Source of the DNA: Nitrosomonas sp. Is79A3
Lineage (GTDB): Bacteria; Pseudomonadota; Gammaproteobacteria; Burkholderiales; Nitrosomonadaceae
Reading direction: 5' to 3'
NCBI RefSeq assembly: GCF_000219585.1
Contig: NC_015731.1
Span: 806,001-870,000, forward strand
DNA length: 64,000 nucleotides
In this document: piece by piece, positions 9,984-18,224 of the stretch
Layout: every line of letters starts with the position of its first letter
Position numbering within the stretch: position 1 is the first letter of the stretch
Notes under the pieces: generated by a model
Told to the model about the DNA's origin: nothing
The model's input: only the letters and a program-made list of their open reading frames with translations
Databases searched by the model: none
Translations under genes and position numbers: made by a program

Positions 9984-10724
9984 TTACTTCCCTAAATCAA
10001 TCAGAAAAAGCCGGATGCGTTCGGCATTCATGCCCAGATCACCTTTCCCGACCCGGGAAGCGGAACGCATATCGACTTGTGTCTTGTTTCCCGCTGCTTG
10101 TACCCGAATTACTACATCATCCTTGAAGCCCATGATGCGTGTGGTGTCTGTTGCTTCGATTCTGCCATTTGCAGCAGAAGCAGCGGCAATCTCCCAGCCA
10201 CGTTTTTTCACCAATGCGACTGCTTGTTCAAAAACCTGATCAGAGGGACGATTAATGAACAGCGGAGTCAGATCGGGATAGCCTGCTTTCTGTAAGGCGG
10301 CCAAATTCTCCGGCTCAGGCCGATCCAGAGAATTATGCGCCGGTGTGCGTAGCGCCTTGATTGCCACAAACTCAGGCGGATGCGCCAGATCTGTCGTAAT
10401 ATCATGAATACGTGGTGTCCCGGCCCCCGCCATGATAGTCATTAAAACTGGCGTCACGACTAAAAATCCTAGAGTTGATCCAGCCAGTGTAGGGGCAATT
10501 TCAGTTTCTTTTGTTTTGATTGCACGCAATGTTCCAATCAATCCAACAATGATGGCCAGAAATCCGGTTAGTACAGTACCCGCGAGACCCAATAAGGCTG
10601 GTTGAAAACCAATCATGCTGAATTGATGACCGAAGATAGCCAGAGCTGCTATTAGGACAGCAAGCAACGAAAGTCTGAGGCTCCATCGGGTAAAATCAAA
10701 TAGTTTATTCATAGTCGATATCAT
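9984..10724 (-). CDS. DUF1499 membrane protein
   Basis: A 246-residue protein with an N-terminal membrane portion of about three helices (residues 14-35, 41-62 and 85-102) and a C-terminal soluble domain (about 105-246). That domain contains HDITTDLAHPPEFVAIKALR and ends with VDMRSASRVGKGDLGMNAERIRLFLIDL, the characteristic ending of DUF1499. Function of the family is unknown. It precedes the antiporter on the same strand, 114 bases apart, so they may be co-transcribed. Confidence 0.8.
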   Translation of the reverse strand: MISTMNKLFDFTRWSLRLSLLAVLIAALAIFGHQFSMIGFQPALLGLAGTVLTGFLAIIVGLIGTLRAIKTKETEIAPTLAGSTLGFLVVTPVLMTIMAGAGTPRIHDITTDLAHPPEFVAIKALRTPAHNSLDRPEPENLAALQKAGYPDLTPLFINRPSDQVFEQAVALVKKRGWEIAAASAANGRIEATDTTRIMGFKDDVVIRVQAAGNKTQVDMRSASRVGKGDLGMNAERIRLFLIDLGK

Positions 10725-10961
10725 TTTAAGTAAGGTTAATAAAATAAGTAGGGATCGCCATTTTTACCAATCCTATAACTCGACCAAATATAACCGATGT
10801 GCCTTGGTATCTGAAAATGGGCTTATTTTCTTGACTTGAAAGAAGCTGATTAATATTTCATTATCCTGTAAGATAATTCTCGCCCATCTACCTGGAAAGC
10901 TCAAATTATTTGGTTCAAAGCCGTTGCTATCTCTTTTTATAAATATCCTCAGCATTATTGC

Positions 10962-12668
10962 ATGAAGAAGCTTCTGCAATTGCCTTTCGCTGTCATTGTG
11001 ATGTTTTTCTGGATTTTTCCGGCCAGTGCGGAAAAGCTGGATGTTGCCATAGAATACAAAGAAACGATCGGTCAATATATTCAGATTTACCAGAGTGACG
11101 ATAGCCACGCAAGCATGCGCGATGCTTTGGATGCATTCAATAAAGGGCATTTCGCTTTATCCGCTAATTCCGTTATTAATTTTGGCATCGGCTCAAAACC
11201 GATATGGCTTGCACTTCAAATTAGCAATTCCGGGGAAACCGCTATTCATCGAAACCTGTTGTTTGAAACCGCCTGGCTGGATAAAATCGATGTTTATTTT
11301 CTCCAACGAGATCAAGTAATCAACAGTTATCACACTGGCGACAATCTGCCATTTTCAAAGCGCCCTCTCAATCATCGTTTCTTTGTCATGGGGCATGATT
11401 TTGCACAGGATAAAACCACAGTCTTGATCAGGATAGAATCAGCCGACGCAATGGTTTTGCCCATTTATTTTATGAGCACTGAGAAGCTAAATGATAGAGA
11501 TGTGCTGCAAGCCTATAGTTATGGTTTTATGTACGGTGTCATCCTGGCTTTGGTTGCTTACAATTTTATGTTGTACATAGGGTTAAGAATTATCCCCTAT
11601 CTGCTTTATTCACTCTATCTCTTATTCTTTTTAGCACTGAATGCTGCTTATACCGGTCACGGCTACCAATGGTTGTGGGCTGAATCGCCCCAATGGCAAC
11701 AATGGGCCAATCCGATTCTGATGATGGTCTGTACCGTGAGCGGGTTTGCATTTGCATTACACTTTCTAGCTATCAAAACAGCTTGGCCTCGCATTTATCA
11801 CGTGATTATCCTAAGCTGCGCCGGTTTTAGCGCATCAATACTTTTTGCGATGCTGGTCGATGAATTTGTCATCGCACTGTTGATATCAATTGTTTTCATT
11901 TTCTTTTTTTACATTTCCTCAGTCATATTGAGTGCCATTTCGTTGCGCGCCGATAACAAGTTCGCCAAGTATTTTCTGCTGGCATCGATTTTCTCGATAT
12001 GCGGTGGAACTATAACGGCAAACGCCGTATGGGGATTCATTCCATTCAACTGGTTGACTTATCGGGCGACGGATATCGGCATGATGGTCGATGCGATTTT
12101 GCTGGCGCTGGCACTCGCCGAACGTTTTAACATCAATCAGAACGAGAAACTGGCGGCTGAGAGAATGGCCGGAATTGATTTGTTGACCGACTTGAATAAC
12201 CGGAGGTCGTTTTATAAATTTGTGCAACCGATCTGGGCCATGAGTGTACGCAGCAAAAGTAGTACATCGGTCATCATGCTGGATATCGATCATTTCAAGG
12301 TGTTTAATGACAATTATGGCCATGCATTGGGAGATCGTGTTTTGGTGCAATTGTCGGAGACCTTGCAGAAAGAAGCACGTAGCGGAGATATTCTGGCGCG
12401 GTGGGGCGGGGAAGAGTTTCTCGTTTTTCTGCCGGAAACGCGATTGTCAGATGCCGCAACCATTGCGGAAAGGATGCGCAAAAAAATTGCCACTATCCAG
12501 ATTGCCACCGATAAGGAAGAAAAACTCTCATTTACCGCCAGCTTGGGAGTTGCCAGTACCTTAGATGTTACTATATCTTTGGATGAATTGATCTCCCAGG
12601 CAGACCAGCAACTTTACCGGGCCAAGAAGCAGGGGCGTAACTGTGTGTGCTCAGACCTATCCGGCTAA
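10962..12668 (+). CDS. Membrane diguanylate cyclase with 7TMR-DISM sensor
   Basis: A 568-residue enzyme predicted to make cyclic di-GMP. Order: signal peptide (1-23), a periplasmic 7TMR-DISMED2-type beta-sandwich (about 30-175, with FGIGSKPIWLALQISN), seven membrane helices (about 185-390) and a GGDEF domain starting at TDLNNRRSF. The active-site motif is GGEEF at 482-486. The inhibitory I-site RxxD (RSGD, 473-476) lies five residues before it, so both catalysis and product feedback look intact. The domain layout implies control by a periplasmic ligand, identity unknown. It runs toward a small gene on the other strand with only 16 bases between. Confidence 0.92.
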   Translation: MKKLLQLPFAVIVMFFWIFPASAEKLDVAIEYKETIGQYIQIYQSDDSHASMRDALDAFNKGHFALSANSVINFGIGSKPIWLALQISNSGETAIHRNLLFETAWLDKIDVYFLQRDQVINSYHTGDNLPFSKRPLNHRFFVMGHDFAQDKTTVLIRIESADAMVLPIYFMSTEKLNDRDVLQAYSYGFMYGVILALVAYNFMLYIGLRIIPYLLYSLYLLFFLALNAAYTGHGYQWLWAESPQWQQWANPILMMVCTVSGFAFALHFLAIKTAWPRIYHVIILSCAGFSASILFAMLVDEFVIALLISIVFIFFFYISSVILSAISLRADNKFAKYFLLASIFSICGGTITANAVWGFIPFNWLTYRATDIGMMVDAILLALALAERFNINQNEKLAAERMAGIDLLTDLNNRRSFYKFVQPIWAMSVRSKSSTSVIMLDIDHFKVFNDNYGHALGDRVLVQLSETLQKEARSGDILARWGGEEFLVFLPETRLSDAATIAERMRKKIATIQIATDKEEKLSFTASLGVASTLDVTISLDELISQADQQLYRAKKQGRNCVCSDLSG

Positions 12669-12684
12669 GACAGCCTCCTAGCTG

Positions 12685-12879
12685 CTAATGCAGTCTCAAA
12701 GACTCGAATGTGATTTCACACTCTTCGTCATCATCAAAAGTATCATGGCTAGTCTCTAGCTCATCAATGATCTGAACGATCCGGCTATCAGGAATCAAGC
12801 CATCCGCTAAAGCTTCATCATCGCCATCAATTGCATCCATAACCTCTGCAGTATCGGCAAAGAATTTCTTGTTTATCAT
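12685..12879 (-). CDS. Asp/Glu-rich small protein, paralogue of the one at 17868
   Basis: A 64-residue, very acidic protein with no signal peptide or membrane helix. The start is well supported by GAGGAGG seven bases before the ATG. It shares with the 78-residue protein at 17868-18104 the MI(N/K) start, the core LAD--IP------IIDE-ET---FDD and the ending (I/V)T(F/L)(E/D)SL(G/R)L. The upstream DNA is also related (12943-12995 against 18171-18224). I recognise no family. A regulatory, metal-binding or precursor-peptide role is conceivable but unsupported. The two copies bracket the TIR-NACHT island. Confidence 0.7.
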   Translation of the reverse strand: MINKKFFADTAEVMDAIDGDDEALADGLIPDSRIVQIIDELETSHDTFDDDEECEITFESLRLH

Positions 12880-12942
12880 GACAAACCTCCTCGCTGCATT
12901 TGTTGATCACATTACTAGTAGAGCATAGGGCTATGCAACATA

Positions 12943-12995
12943 AATTAAAGATTACAAACGATTTTCCCTGGCAATTTGATAGTATGGAGTATGCC
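12943..12995 (-). promoter_or_regulatory. Conserved upstream block of the acidic-protein gene, copy 1
   Basis: Compared with 18171-18224, the first 34 bases match at about 29 positions, and the core TTTTCCC-GGCAATT is shared. Both blocks sit about 65 bases upstream of paralogous small genes and point the same way. This suggests a shared promoter or leader duplicated with the gene. No clean -35/-10 or -24/-12 pair is evident. Confidence 0.45.
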
Positions 12996-13052
12996 CTTCA
13001 GCAACGCCGCCAGTTGCCTGAATTGCCGAATTTGTTTGCAGGCCCGCCTTTA

Positions 13053-13192
13053 CAGGCCGTTGAAAAACTATCTGCGTTGCCGCTGCGGTGTTAAAAACAG
13101 ACTCAAAATGCTCATTTATCACGCATAAACTGCGTTTTTTCGCCTGTTTTTGCCTTGCATCGGCTGCCTCGAAAACGTTTTTCAACGGCCTG
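13053..13192. repeat. ~140-bp inverted-terminus element, copy A (complete)
   Basis: The element is bounded by perfect 15-bp inverted termini, AGGCCGTTGAAAAAC (13054-13068) and its complement (13177-13191). The interior is shared with copies at 34151-34203, 38863-38956 and 41519-41657. It has no transposase gene, so it resembles a MITE or a non-autonomous element. No clear target duplication is seen at its edges. It occupies most of the gap between the small acidic gene and the 159-residue gene. Confidence 0.8.
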
Positions 13193-13299
13193 TTAGAGTG
13201 ATACGATTATCTGACTGCATTCCATTTCCATTAGGTTGGAATAGGAAGTATTCTTTGCGATTCTTATTCAAACTGAGTCAGCGTTATTGAGGCCAAATC

Positions 13300-13779
13300 A
13301 TGAAAATTAAAGATCTGTTTGAAAACTGGAACCTGACCGGACTCAAAATCAAGGCATCGTTCTTGGAAATGGAATGGAAGCCCTCCGATCCCGATAAAGC
13401 GGCCGCATGGGATCTCTATGTAGAACTCGTAACACGCATCACCACGCAACCGCTGGCGGACGAAGATGGCGTGGAACAAACTGCACTGACCAGCATTCAC
13501 GACTTGTTCGACCTCACCCGGCAAACCCTCAAAACGCATGGCTATGCGTGCGAACAATTTGCCAAAATCGCCATCGTGGTACTCAACCAAGTGGTGCGGC
13601 CATTTACCGCCAAATGGCATCGCAAAAGCCAGAACGGCGCTTTTGCTTCTCCCGATGACTGCCAGCAATTCCGCCAGGAACTGCAAGTCTTACAAACGCA
13701 ACTGAGAAATTACACTCACCTGCTGGCCGAACTTGCCGGGGTGGAAGATTTGACGGAGATCGAAGCGGAAAATTTGTAG
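13300..13779 (+). CDS. Hypothetical protein upstream of a TIR gene remnant
   Basis: A soluble, mostly helical 159-residue protein, with no signal peptide or membrane helix. The ATG at 13300 has GAGG eight bases upstream. Conserved-looking features are the opening FENWNLTGLKIKASFLEMEW, the segment VVRPFTAKWHRKS and a helical C-terminus ending ELAGVEDLTEIEAENL. I have an impression that similar small proteins sit next to TIR-domain genes, but I cannot name a family. Here a broken TIR gene begins 38 bases downstream on the same strand, so this may be the surviving partner of a two-gene unit. The intact TIR-NACHT gene runs toward it from the other strand. Confidence 0.6.
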   Translation: MKIKDLFENWNLTGLKIKASFLEMEWKPSDPDKAAAWDLYVELVTRITTQPLADEDGVEQTALTSIHDLFDLTRQTLKTHGYACEQFAKIAIVVLNQVVRPFTAKWHRKSQNGAFASPDDCQQFRQELQVLQTQLRNYTHLLAELAGVEDLTEIEAENL

Positions 13780-13817
13780 CCTATAATCACAGCCATCAGC
13801 AATCGATGCCATTCATC

Positions 13818-14023
13818 ATGCCGGAAACCGAGGCTCAAACTATCAAACCAATATTCCTCAGCTTCAGCCGCACTGATCGTGACGTCGGCGTGCAGGGATG
13901 GATAACTCTATGCGTTTTGCGGATTCATGGGGGCTACGGCGGCATGTGCTGAAGCCAATCCGCATCAAACCCGGCGATTTACGGCAGAAAAATTCAAGCA
14001 CCGCTTCGCGGCGCTATCAGTGA
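13818..14023 (+). pseudogene. Remnant of a TIR-domain gene
   Basis: An ATG at 13818 opens a frame whose residues 9-23 read IKPIFLSFSRTDRDV, the beta-A strand and following loop of a bacterial TIR domain. After about 25 residues the protein stops resembling TIR and the frame ends at 13952. A second frame, entered near 13900, continues as MRFADSWGLRRHVLKPIRIK and stops at 14023; it may be the tail of the lost protein. A TIR domain needs about 130 residues, so this is a start fused to an end by deletion. It begins 38 bases after the 159-residue gene, as in an operon. Confidence 0.5.
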
Positions 14024-14065
14024 ACAGCAAACCAGCGCTTCAGCGGCCAGCGCGCCAGCGATCCG

Positions 14066-16930
14066 CTATTCGATGGGGGACGAACACAATACCCGGAAAC
14101 CGAGATTGCCGCGGCGATAGGCCGGATGGTAGCTGACGCGCACCGACGCGCGCACGTTGACCGGATAATAGAACCAGGAACCACCGCGCAGTACGCGGGC
14201 CTCGTTGCCCGATAATTGGCAATTTTCTGACATGTCGTATTCATTCAAGCACCATTCCCAGACATTGCCGGCCATATCCAGCACACCATCAGGCGAAGCG
14301 GCATGCGAATATAGCCCAACTGCGGAAGTTCTTCCGAGATTGAATTCACAATTAGAAAAATCTTTCTGGAATTCATTCCCCCAAGGATAGTTCAAACCTT
14401 GTGTCCCACGTGCCGCCCGTTCCCATTGTTGTTCTGTTGGCAAACTCACCATAAAACCCCGTCGATCACTAAGCCAGCGGCAGAAGGCTATCGCCTCATA
14501 CCAACTGACTGTTTCCCGTGGTGCATTGGGTTCGCTCCAGTCGGGTGAAGCGGGTGCATCCAAGCGCTCATGCAACACCTGCCACCCCTGCCACCCCTGC
14601 CACCAATGATCATCCTGATAACCACCGGCATCGATAAATGCCTGAAACTGGGCATGCGTGATCGGGTAACGGGCGATATGAAATTCCGGCAGCGGAGAGT
14701 GTTCATCATCTTGATAAACAAAGGCAGTAGAGGGAATTTTGACCCAATCGATATCCGGCAAACCATCCGCGCGCAAACCGACGCCTTTACGGTTGTCCAG
14801 TCCAAAATTTCCCAATGCACGACCAATGGCGGCACGCGCAGCGGGATGCGGCTCCTGTGCAATGTCGGTCATGCGAGTAAACCATTGGTTGGCAATGGTT
14901 GAAAGTGCCTCGGATGATAAATTTATTTTTCCCACATGTTGCCAGATTGTGCTGGCAACCTCCGGATTGGCTTGGGCCAACCAGGCAATTAAGTGTAGCT
15001 GTGCGTCAGTATCGTTGCCGCACGATTCGGCGGCGATTTCCGCGACGACTTCCCAGCCAGACCGCTCCCACCAGGTTGCTTGAGGCCAGAAATCATTCGC
15101 AGTCTTGTCACTGGAATGGCTAGCATCCAACAATAGACGGCTGGCGAGATATTCCTGTAACAATTGATGCGTAAAGCGGATATCACTACCGCTTTGCTGT
15201 AGTACGCTCGCATCGATGGAAAATTTGATTAGATCATCCGTTAAGCTGGCCGGACATTGTGAGCGCAATAGCGTGGTTTGCGCGCCATCTGATTGTTGTG
15301 TATTTGCGGTGTTTTGCATTGCTTCAGCTAGCGCCACTAGAGCCGCTTCCCAGTCAGTCCGAGCGGGAACATGTTCATGACGGTTCTCGCGTGCCGTTTG
15401 TTCGCGTTCATACAAAAGCTGCAGGAATCCTTGGAATAACTGGGCGCGATTGCTGGGTACTTGCTTGAGTGCAATAAAAACATGCAACAAATAAGGATTC
15501 GACGCCAGTCGTAATAAACTGCGCGGATTAAAGCGCACTTCCCGCCATAATTGATTTTGCTGCCAGGATGTATCGATGTTCGGGTTTTCCTTGGGGATTT
15601 TTTTAGCACTCCAGAACAAATCCAGATCTGCACCGGCTTTATGCCAGATCTCCCACACTTGCCGGATATCATCACCGCCGGCTAAGTGCCAGAACCGGTC
15701 TTGGGCAGCTTGAGCGGCATTGGATCCATCTTGCAGCAAATTAAATGCCCGTTCCAGAAAAACCATAATTTGCGATGGCTTTAATGGCTGCAATACCAAG
15801 GTATCAAATGGTAAATAACAATCCCCGGTAAAATCTTTTTCACGGCAACTGACCATGACACTGGCAAAGCGCTCATCTTGCGCCAGACACTTAATCTGCT
15901 CAACCTTGAATTTGCGCTGCCCTGGAGGAATTTCGTTCATGCCGTCCAGCAGCAGTACAGCCCGTCGCAGGTCACGCAATGTTGAAAAATAGCGGCCAAG
16001 TTTGCCCAATTGATCCTCAATAAAATCTTCCAACGATATGGCTTCGCGCGTCCAGGACCCCAGCGGCACCAGTAATGGAATCGGCGCATGTTCATCTTGC
16101 AGCGCTTTTCGGGCATATTCAATTGAAATTCGCTGTAACGAAAACGACTTACCCGCACCAGGTTCACCCAATACCGCCAAGCGTCGCACCGGCTTGTCTT
16201 CTAAATCCCGGTAAGCATCCAGCGCATCCGTATAAGTTTTTTCGATGACTTGCTCATGCGCTATTTGATCCACTTTAAAAGCCCGGAAAATTGCATCGGT
16301 ATCAACCCGAAGCGATTTCATTACCCGCTCGGGAGAAAGCGAACGGCGTTCGCAGGCTTCCAACGCCACATAACGACTTTCCAGATCGGATAAATCCTTG
16401 TTGATCAGATCATTAAGATAGGTTAATTCATCCCGGCGCTGCGGGCTGGCAGAAGTTTGTGTGTAATTGTTTTCAGAAAGTGGCGCAATATTTGGGGTGC
16501 GGTTTTGCAGCGCAGGCAAAATTTCGGCTAATTTTCGGGTCAATCGGTCCAGTGTATCTTGCGGATCAGAATGCGCTTCGATCGGTTGCTTTTCTTGGAT
16601 GTAGAAAGGTAAGCTGACATTATCAATACGCAGTGCTACAACTTGCTTTTTCAATTTATCTGAATACAACATTTCCCGCTCTTGCCAGCCACACTGATCA
16701 GTATCTTTTCCTACAATGCAAACCACCACATCGGACTTTTCAATGCCACGTTGTATGCTGCGATACCAATTGTCGTTGCCTTCCTCAATCGACCGCTCAT
16801 CCCGCCAGACTTCGGCACCCTGTTGTTCGAGGTGGGATTGTATCCGCTCCGACCAAGTGTGCGCATTTCCGCCGCGCGCGTAACTGATAAATATCCGTAG
16901 TTTCGCAAGTTGATTAGTTGTTGCCGTCAT
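14066..16930 (-). CDS. TIR-NACHT-FGE/C-lectin protein, putative immune effector
   Basis: A 954-residue multidomain protein. Residues 10-150 form a TIR domain (KLRIFISYARGG, with a WQERE segment where NAD-cleaving TIRs carry the catalytic Glu). Residues about 250-420 form a NACHT-type ATPase with Walker A GEPGAGKS (255-262) and Walker B LLLDGMNEI (D329). A helical middle region follows. From about 717 on is an FGE-sulfatase/C-type-lectin fold domain (GNVWEWCLNEYD, RVLRGGSWFY, NLGFRV). By analogy with prokaryotic NLR-like conflict proteins, the C-lectin part could sense a ligand, NACHT oligomerise and TIR consume NAD+. The start at 16930 is chosen because AAAAGA precedes it and TIR begins ten residues on; an upstream start would add 36 unconvincing residues. 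Confidence 0.85.
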   Translation of the reverse strand: MTATTNQLAKLRIFISYARGGNAHTWSERIQSHLEQQGAEVWRDERSIEEGNDNWYRSIQRGIEKSDVVVCIVGKDTDQCGWQEREMLYSDKLKKQVVALRIDNVSLPFYIQEKQPIEAHSDPQDTLDRLTRKLAEILPALQNRTPNIAPLSENNYTQTSASPQRRDELTYLNDLINKDLSDLESRYVALEACERRSLSPERVMKSLRVDTDAIFRAFKVDQIAHEQVIEKTYTDALDAYRDLEDKPVRRLAVLGEPGAGKSFSLQRISIEYARKALQDEHAPIPLLVPLGSWTREAISLEDFIEDQLGKLGRYFSTLRDLRRAVLLLDGMNEIPPGQRKFKVEQIKCLAQDERFASVMVSCREKDFTGDCYLPFDTLVLQPLKPSQIMVFLERAFNLLQDGSNAAQAAQDRFWHLAGGDDIRQVWEIWHKAGADLDLFWSAKKIPKENPNIDTSWQQNQLWREVRFNPRSLLRLASNPYLLHVFIALKQVPSNRAQLFQGFLQLLYEREQTARENRHEHVPARTDWEAALVALAEAMQNTANTQQSDGAQTTLLRSQCPASLTDDLIKFSIDASVLQQSGSDIRFTHQLLQEYLASRLLLDASHSSDKTANDFWPQATWWERSGWEVVAEIAAESCGNDTDAQLHLIAWLAQANPEVASTIWQHVGKINLSSEALSTIANQWFTRMTDIAQEPHPAARAAIGRALGNFGLDNRKGVGLRADGLPDIDWVKIPSTAFVYQDDEHSPLPEFHIARYPITHAQFQAFIDAGGYQDDHWWQGWQGWQVLHERLDAPASPDWSEPNAPRETVSWYEAIAFCRWLSDRRGFMVSLPTEQQWERAARGTQGLNYPWGNEFQKDFSNCEFNLGRTSAVGLYSHAASPDGVLDMAGNVWEWCLNEYDMSENCQLSGNEARVLRGGSWFYYPVNVRASVRVSYHPAYRRGNLGFRVLCSSPIE

Positions 16931-17008
16931 TCTTTTAAAGCCTGATGAAAATGGCGTGGATTCGTGTACTTGTAGATTATAGTTGGCGGTATTATAAGCA
17001 AGTAATAG

Positions 17009-17164
17009 TGCATCAGGTGGATATGTGGCGCAAATCAAGAGAACAGTTTTGCTCGTTCATTTGACTGGCGGGTACGTAATGCCAAACCACATCCTTGGGG
17101 TGCTTTGAACGTGACTTTGTTTAGTCAGGTGTGCCAACGGTTCAATCAGATTATCCAGCTTTGA
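17009..17164 (+). pseudogene. Possible decayed coding fragment
   Basis: Between the TIR-NACHT gene and the Nudix gene, one plus-strand frame stays open for 51 codons and reads plausibly as protein near its end (RNAKPHPWGALNVTLFSQ, then VCQRFNQIIQL). It lacks a start codon. It could be the tail of a deleted gene, but I do not recognise the family and chance is possible. Nothing else is visible in this gap. Confidence 0.2.
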
Positions 17165-17867: not shown

Positions 17868-18104
17868 CTAACGCAGTCCTAACGAGTCGAGCGTAACATC
17901 ATTATCGTCGTCATCGTCAAAATCATTTTTGACTGTTTCGAATTCGTTATCATCAAAATCATCTTTGACTGTCTCAAATTCGTCAATGATTTTTGCAAAT
18001 TTCCCCGGTGGGATTTTGCTATCCGCCAGCAGATCATCCTCATCATTTATACTATCAGCAGGATAAATGCCATCGTCATCATCAAAAGAAAGTTCTTTAA
18101 TCAT
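17868..18104 (-). CDS. Asp-rich small protein with internal 12-residue repeat
   Basis: A 78-residue, strongly acidic protein related to the 64-residue protein at 12685-12879. The ATG at 18104 lies eight bases after AAGGAGG, the best ribosome site in this region; an ATG two codons earlier is only two bases from it. The core LADSKIPPGKFAKIIDEFET is followed by a near-exact repeat of FETVK-DFDD, and the protein ends VTLDSLGLR. No membrane helix, signal peptide or known domain is visible. The function is unknown. Its upstream DNA resembles that of its paralogue. Confidence 0.7.
   Translation of the reverse strand: MIKELSFDDDDGIYPADSINDEDDLLADSKIPPGKFAKIIDEFETVKDDFDDNEFETVKNDFDDDDDNDVTLDSLGLR
17917..17982. 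repeat. 36-bp period tandem duplication inside the acidic-protein gene
   Basis: Bases 17917-17946 and 17953-17982 match at 27 of 30 positions with a period of 36 bases. The duplication therefore keeps the frame and doubles a 12-residue Asp/Glu segment. The paralogue at 12685 has a single unit, so the duplication is specific to this copy. Confidence 0.75.
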
Positions 18105-18170
18105 TGTCATCACCTCCTTCAAACATATTCTGAAAACAATGTTATTGATATCACACCCTATTGATACAAG

Positions 18171-18224
18171 AATCAAAGATCACATACGGTTTTCCCCGGC
18201 AATTCTTAAGTTTGGAGAAGTGCC
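18171..18224 (-). promoter_or_regulatory. Conserved upstream block of the acidic-protein gene, copy 2
   Basis: Counterpart of 12943-12995, placed 67 bases before the start at 18104. The best conserved part reads TTTTCCCCGGCAATT on the plus strand. It probably carries promoter or regulatory signals duplicated with the gene. Confidence 0.45.

Follow-up and report, generated by a model that had tools for sequence, protein, structure and literature searches.

A 159-residue gene of Nitrosomonas sp. Is79A3, located within the 64,000 nucleotides analysed here (the window), stands beside what is almost certainly the scar of a diversity-generating retroelement (DGR) cassette whose second target was left stranded. 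The protein it encodes is likely to be a partner of TIR systems, and we regard a function as adaptor or receptor as the leading guess; for the scar, the TIR partnership and this leading guess taken together we estimate a probability of roughly 0.6.

The deletion scar and its intact counterpart

The genome consists of one contig of 3,783,444 bases, and the closest named relatives found with the 159-residue protein are Nitrosomonas. The locus comprises the following features (window positions).

13300-13779, plus strand: the 159-residue gene, a 159-codon ORF of a TIR-associated family that has no curated model
13818-13889, plus strand: stub of the deleted DGR target 1, its first ~23 codons; target 1 of the relatives is TIR-nSTAND1-FGE
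13880-13890: deletion joint, with a nine-base word common to the TIR start of locus L037 and the RT gene of locus L036
13890-14023, plus strand: what is left of the DGR reverse transcriptase (RT) gene, a piece of its 3' end (tblastn match 13895-14020)
14003-14065: short conserved stretch between the RT end and the end of the convergent target, present behind the targets of relatives too
14066-17038, minus strand: intact TIR_2-NACHT-FGE gene, the stranded second DGR target, in the same position as target 2 of L036
14069-14208, minus strand: 3'-terminal variable region (VR) of the TIR_2-NACHT-FGE gene, from alignment with the L036 template

The first-pass annotation had described a two-gene unit in which the 159-residue gene is followed after 38 bases by the start of a TIR gene and a frame break, and this arrangement is present. 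The stub opens with an ATG at 13818, 38 bases 3' of the 159-residue ORF, and its ~23 codons align with the TIR gene starts of the related loci L036, L037 and L038. The ORF behind the break had been taken for the possible tail of the same TIR protein, a proposal that fails: positions 13898-14023 correspond to residues 296-337 of the 337-residue L036 RT query, the C-terminal 42 residues, with 76% identity (E 4e-14). It is accordingly next to impossible that the stub and this ORF represent the beginning and the end of a single deleted TIR gene, and this reading is also contradicted by target 1 of the relatives, which ends in a conserved FGE end unlike 13898-14023. The deleted effector of the supposed unit was thus correctly recognised in so far as the adjacent downstream TIR gene was deleted; the actual loss was larger, taking with the remainder of target 1 also the template, Avd and the greater part of RT. 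The gene converging on the stub is an intact TIR gene, as annotated. Its ORF encodes 990 residues, with a likelier ATG start at 16930, and includes an FGE-sulfatase domain (Pfam PF03781, E 4.7e-44); the combination of TIR_2, NACHT and FGE in one chain gives the predicted protein the layout of an NLR-like STAND immune receptor. Since an intact second TIR target lies next door, TIR as such was not purged at the locus. Around these features, a dispersed repeat of ~150 bases with at least 40 matches in the own genome (90-100% identity; 40 scored, from 99 first-look candidates) lies upstream of the 159-residue gene at 13040-13200, and on either side of the DGR region there is a small acidic ORF (12685-12879 and 17868-18176, both minus strand), the two resembling each other; no clear Pfam match was found for either of the two, and a similar ORF is located in L034 (9115-9366).

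The intact form of the cassette was found in L036, a locus of the relative G044, with the following order.

10394-10873, plus strand: the 159-residue gene
10913-13744, plus strand: target 1, 943 aa, TIR_2-nSTAND1-FGE (Pfam domains)
13889-14028: template repeat
14326-14697, minus strand: bAvd
ending at 15785, plus strand: RT
15828-16997, minus strand: target 2, 389 aa, TIR_2-FGE, converging on RT

Both L036 targets end in GFRVLCSSPIE. Compared to the template, target 1 differs at 17 of 32 A and at 11 of 108 other bases (Fisher p 9.6e-7) and target 2 at 14 of 32 A and 4 of 108 other bases (Fisher p 1.2e-7), which is the adenine bias of DGRs. Avd and RT are encoded on opposite strands, with Avd directed away from RT, both here and in locus L109 (10249-10659).

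A DNA alignment with the related loci placed the deletion joint at 13880-13890. In a blastn comparison of window positions 13777-14066 with the fetched loci, positions 1-108 of this segment match L024 (E 2e-37) and represent the stretch behind the 159-residue gene plus the start of the next TIR gene of the relatives, with shorter matches in L034 and L026. Positions 104-290 correspond to L026 10248-10435, the end of the RT gene (E 4e-40). L026 and L036 derive from the same contig, L036 being the full-length version, and in L036 coordinates the two joined points are ~4.7 kb apart, so that ~4.7 kb are missing from the window. The joined stretch is also present, 90% identical over 290 bases, in another species (G045, loci L025/L039). 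As the joint is common to the window and L039, the deletion predates the split of these two lineages. In L039 the convergent gene survives as a TIR fragment of 96 residues and a remnant of the VR, and both copies of the scar carry further small damage. Judging from the two species, the deletion likely arose by recombination between short direct repeats, given the nine-base word at the joint that the TIR start and the RT gene have in common.

We propose that the ancestral locus was ordered as in L036, with the 159-residue gene followed by target 1 (TIR-nSTAND1-FGE, its 3' end variable), the template, Avd, RT and target 2; Avd would have been opposite in strand to RT and the second TIR-FGE target would have converged on RT. 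A single deletion, probably between short direct repeats, would then have joined target 1 at about codon 22 to the last ~48 codons of RT, the same event eliminating the template and Avd together with most of RT and the rest of target 1. The second target would thereby have been stranded, its VR no longer rewritable from the window locus.

A TIR gene was lost behind the 159-residue gene in N. oligotropha as well. In Nm75, Nm45 and G075 the next long ORF behind the gene is presumably metH, and in the gap in between a convergent TIR gene begins, its reading frame running for 24-26 codons up to a stop. In Nm75, 80 bases of this start align with that of L036 target 2 at 77.5% identity (E 4e-12), and in Nm45 and G075 the DNA match to the same start covers 30 bases at 90%. 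This is a second loss, different from the window deletion.

Apparently stranded targets in the own genome

The window VR differs from the L036 template at 17 of 32 A and at 12 of 108 other bases (Fisher p 2e-6), and the window target has an FGE domain with the VR at its end, as is typical for a DGR target. Of RT, which is present in L036, residues 296-337 alone remain in the window. With the L036 RT query the own genome yielded no match beyond this C-terminus at E 0.001, and an RVT_1 search yielded none at E 0.01. With the VR as query, a separate template was not found in the own genome, and the only other match was one of 25 bases in another such C-terminus. The bAvd search gave no match in the own genome at E 0.01, and the control genomes were likewise without a match; Avd was detected in L036 and L109. 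The window thus contains a DGR remnant and not a working DGR. Two further genes of the own genome have VR-like ends.

L119, 7084-9888: DUF4062-nSTAND1-FGE gene, 934 aa; end differing at 13 of 30 A and 15 of 106 other bases
L120, 6272-9877: NACHT-FGE gene, 1201 aa; end differing at 17 of 29 A and 17 of 102 other bases

Three targets of the own genome therefore seem to be left without a mutator.

Dore et al. 2024 (PMC10907252) describe clade 5D DGRs whose targets are STAND NTPases, in some cases with TIR at the N-terminus; they name Nitrosomonas among the hosts of multiple related DGRs and report degenerate loci in Thiohalocapsa. By target architecture, our locus resembles these clade 5D DGRs in having two targets, each with NACHT or nSTAND1 and, at the C-terminus, a variable region of the FGE/C-type-lectin kind; it differs from them in that RT, Avd and template are missing from the window, the target is stranded and a 159-residue TIR-associated gene precedes the cassette. 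The DGR part of the window is hence an already described kind, a STAND-target DGR, in a degraded state.

Association of the 159-residue family with TIR genes

Homologues of the 159-residue protein were found in 20 of 125 genomes of the family Nitrosomonadaceae, in at least 5 of 369 genomes of the class sample and at least 5 of 398 of the phylum sample (both samples include the own genome and G074, and in their larger genomes part of the first-look candidates was scored), in 11 plasmid records and in two viral contigs, with the same two viral loci recovered in a repeat scan; phage records gave no match to the family. The family is thereby represented in Pseudomonadota, Poribacteria, Actinomycetota and Cyanobacteriota as well as the two viral contigs, and one Poribacteria genome has two copies. 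In NCBIfam and Pfam scans of 17 members the best E values were 0.097 and 0.071, respectively, spread over unrelated families, a PADLOC scan of two members gave nothing useful, and a PDB sequence search with the 159-residue protein returned a single match, to a 27-residue chain (E 0.79). A description of the family was not found in the open literature searched on DGRs, TIR conflict systems and Thoeris.

We judged 40 loci by hand for TIR genes within 3 kb, the distance being taken between gene edges. Of these, 25 have a TIR gene, whole or as a large piece, 3 a TIR fossil and 12 neither; the 19 Nitrosomonadaceae loci contribute 11, 3 and 5 to these classes, and among the 21 loci outside the family 14 have a TIR gene and 7 do not. 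Omitted from the 40 were G056 (L049) and G410 (L074), in which the 159-residue gene is cut by the contig end, the plasmid records H8 and H9, which agree with H7 in species, identity and annotation, and duplicate entries of a genome listed under more than one id. Scored as without TIR were G513 (L075) and G078 (L047), each with one side cut at ~600 bases, as well as Calothrix copy a, where a gene 1.5 kb away gives a weak TIR-like tblastn match (E 1.7e-5). The 159-residue gene is broken in G092, G063, G009 and the Nitrosospira genome G097, which were nevertheless counted. TIR domains were checked by Pfam except for L043, whose adjacent TIR gene was assigned by its likeness to that of L044, and L064, which relies on the RefSeq name and a tblastn match. 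By chance ~0.23 of the 19 Nitrosomonadaceae loci would be expected to have a TIR gene within 3 kb, compared with the 11 seen, a rough figure derived from the TIR_2 domain counts of 20 genomes that ignores relatedness. At genome level a TIR_2 match occurs in 20 of 20 family genomes with the 159-residue gene and in 69 of 105 without it, with mean TIR_2 counts of 5.75 and 2.14, respectively, relatedness again being ignored in the statistics.

The spacing of the two genes is often tight. They overlap by 4 bases in L064 and L072 and are 11-36 bases apart in L061, L062, L063, L066b and L073. The 159-residue gene is positioned before the TIR gene in L063, L064, L066b and L073 and after it in L061, L062, L067 and L072, and in Poribacteria L078 a 159-like gene has one TIR gene before it and two after it. 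The neighbouring TIR proteins carry nSTAND1-FGE, NACHT-FGE, FGE, WD40, TPR or SLOG, or are of ThsB type alone. On plasmids of Rhizobium, Mesorhizobium and Sinorhizobium the 159 domain forms the N-terminus of a patatin-like protein amid TIR genes, and the patatin part exceeds the Pfam cut-off in two of these three plasmids. Among 5,085 ORFs of the fetched loci, the A2 HMM found the domain alone or N-terminal to patatin and never in TIR proteins. The suggestion of the first-pass annotation that the 159-residue protein is a cognate TIR partner gains from the 25 loci and the close spacing, and its counter-prediction, that homologues are never followed by TIR genes, fails, since some of them are; the 12 of 40 loci with neither a TIR gene nor a fossil argue against an obligate pair.

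Several TIR-less or composite loci have further genes. In Poribacteria L031 (3436-4188) and L032 (4228-4959) a TIR-less homologue lies downstream of a NADAR-DarT1 antitoxin gene, assigned by Pfam in L031 and by likeness in L032. An Nmad2 gene occurs together with ThsB-type TIR and 159-family genes in L068 (6197-6838) and L073 (8242-8982), and a look-alike is located at the edge of Poribacteria L057; Nmad2, ThsB-type TIR and the 159-residue protein possibly constitute a recurrent multi-gene system.

The gene appears to be maintained also where its TIR neighbour is missing. Pairwise dN/dS is 0.116 (dS 0.70) between the window and G045, both with the joint, 0.119, 0.135 and 0.160 for the pairs formed by the three N. 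oligotropha-type genomes, and 0.039-0.048 between Poribacteria copies without TIR. These low values indicate that the gene is kept by selection without an adjacent co-directed TIR gene, and consequently that it does not require one. Maintenance is not universal, however, as the broken copies in G092, G063, G009 and G097 show. In a tree of 36 sequences, TIR and non-TIR loci are intermixed, many branches being weak or long.

Possible roles of the 159-residue protein

From the gene neighbourhoods, the 159-residue protein probably works with the TIR domain or its product, because TIR is the common part of the neighbours and the rest of the TIR protein varies. It may act as an adaptor or receptor and so link TIR output to an effector, and copies that have lost the adjacent TIR gene may serve TIRs encoded elsewhere in the genome. 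The N-terminal fusion to patatin-like proteins amid TIR genes favours such a role over that of an inhibitor, and we put it forward tentatively, at somewhat less than even odds. The proposed parallel is the SLOG domain of Thoeris ThsA, which binds the cyclic ADP-ribose signal made by TIR. The AlphaFold model of the 159-residue protein, for which 13 alignment rows were usable, is poor (mean pLDDT 58, pTM 0.47) and a Foldseek search with it gave no match below E 1, so that neither lends support to a ligand pocket.

The likeness to Thoeris extends to ThsB_TIR-type proteins (PF08937), which adjoin the 159 family in L061, L062, L067, L068, L072, L073 and L078. Unlike in Thoeris, there is no ThsA-like NADase among the scanned neighbours, and the window TIR is fused to NACHT-FGE. 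ThsA (SLOG with Sir2 or another effector) is absent from the six proteins scanned around the window locus, and the window TIR protein gives weak matches to ThsB in PADLOC. A second comparison is offered by the effector-associated domains (EADs) of conflict systems, which according to Kaur et al. 2020 (PMC7159879) occur in both partner proteins. The 159-residue protein resembles EADs as described there (PMC7159879) in being a small, non-enzymatic-looking domain beside or fused to effectors, and differs in that, as noted above for the 5,085 ORFs, its domain was not found in the TIR partners.

Alternatively, the protein could be an inhibitor of the TIR enzyme, that is, an antitoxin or immunity protein whose orphan copies would keep in check incoming TIRs or those encoded elsewhere in the genome. 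The small separate gene, often tightly linked to TIR, its persistence under selection after two separate TIR losses and the TIR_2 genes in all 20 family genomes that have it would fit this role, which we nonetheless consider unlikely: the patatin-like fusion is odd for an inhibitor, the variable position before or after the TIR gene does not suit one, and DGR cassettes with TIR targets occur in genomes without the 159-residue gene. Decidedly less probable is that the gene is an unrelated passenger sharing defence islands with TIR genes. The 12 TIR-less loci would agree with this, as would other conflict genes nearby at some loci (NADAR-DarT1 antitoxin in L031, CHAT-TPR in L047), but the 4-base overlaps and 11-36-base gaps recur in loci of different phyla, and the count of 11 among 19 family loci far exceeds the expected 0.23. 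A function as DGR accessory protein is very improbable; seven Nitrosomonas genomes (G000, G045, G053, G092, G044, G059, G055) have the gene ahead of the cassette or of what remains of it, but cassettes with 78-80% identical RT in G020, G064 and G012 do without it, having no homologue in the fetched stretch (5 kb only for G012) or, at E 0.001, in the genomes, and most loci elsewhere occur with TIR genes, no RT having been noticed beside them in the neighbourhoods inspected, so the gene was rejected as a part of the DGR. A chance ORF is ruled out by the conservation across phyla and by purifying selection.

TIR domains occur in the immunity of bacteria, plants and animals alike, and in bacteria the genes that partner them reveal what TIRs sense and trigger. 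With the adaptor or receptor role as our leading guess, the 159 family might constitute an undescribed TIR-immunity module across phyla, one that recognises the TIR domain or the nucleotide it produces and is sometimes fused to a patatin-like lipase; in Nitrosomonas it would be linked to DGR-diversified TIR sensors, and the own genome would retain a frozen repertoire of three sensors with the mutator deleted. This wider picture is more doubtful than its parts, and we offer it with some reserve. The family is a candidate TIR partner that can be tested, found with many TIR architectures in several phyla and sometimes fused to a lipase. The scar itself represents a natural experiment, a cellular DGR without RT that seems to have left three diversified immune sensors, and poses the question whether such a frozen repertoire is kept or is decaying.
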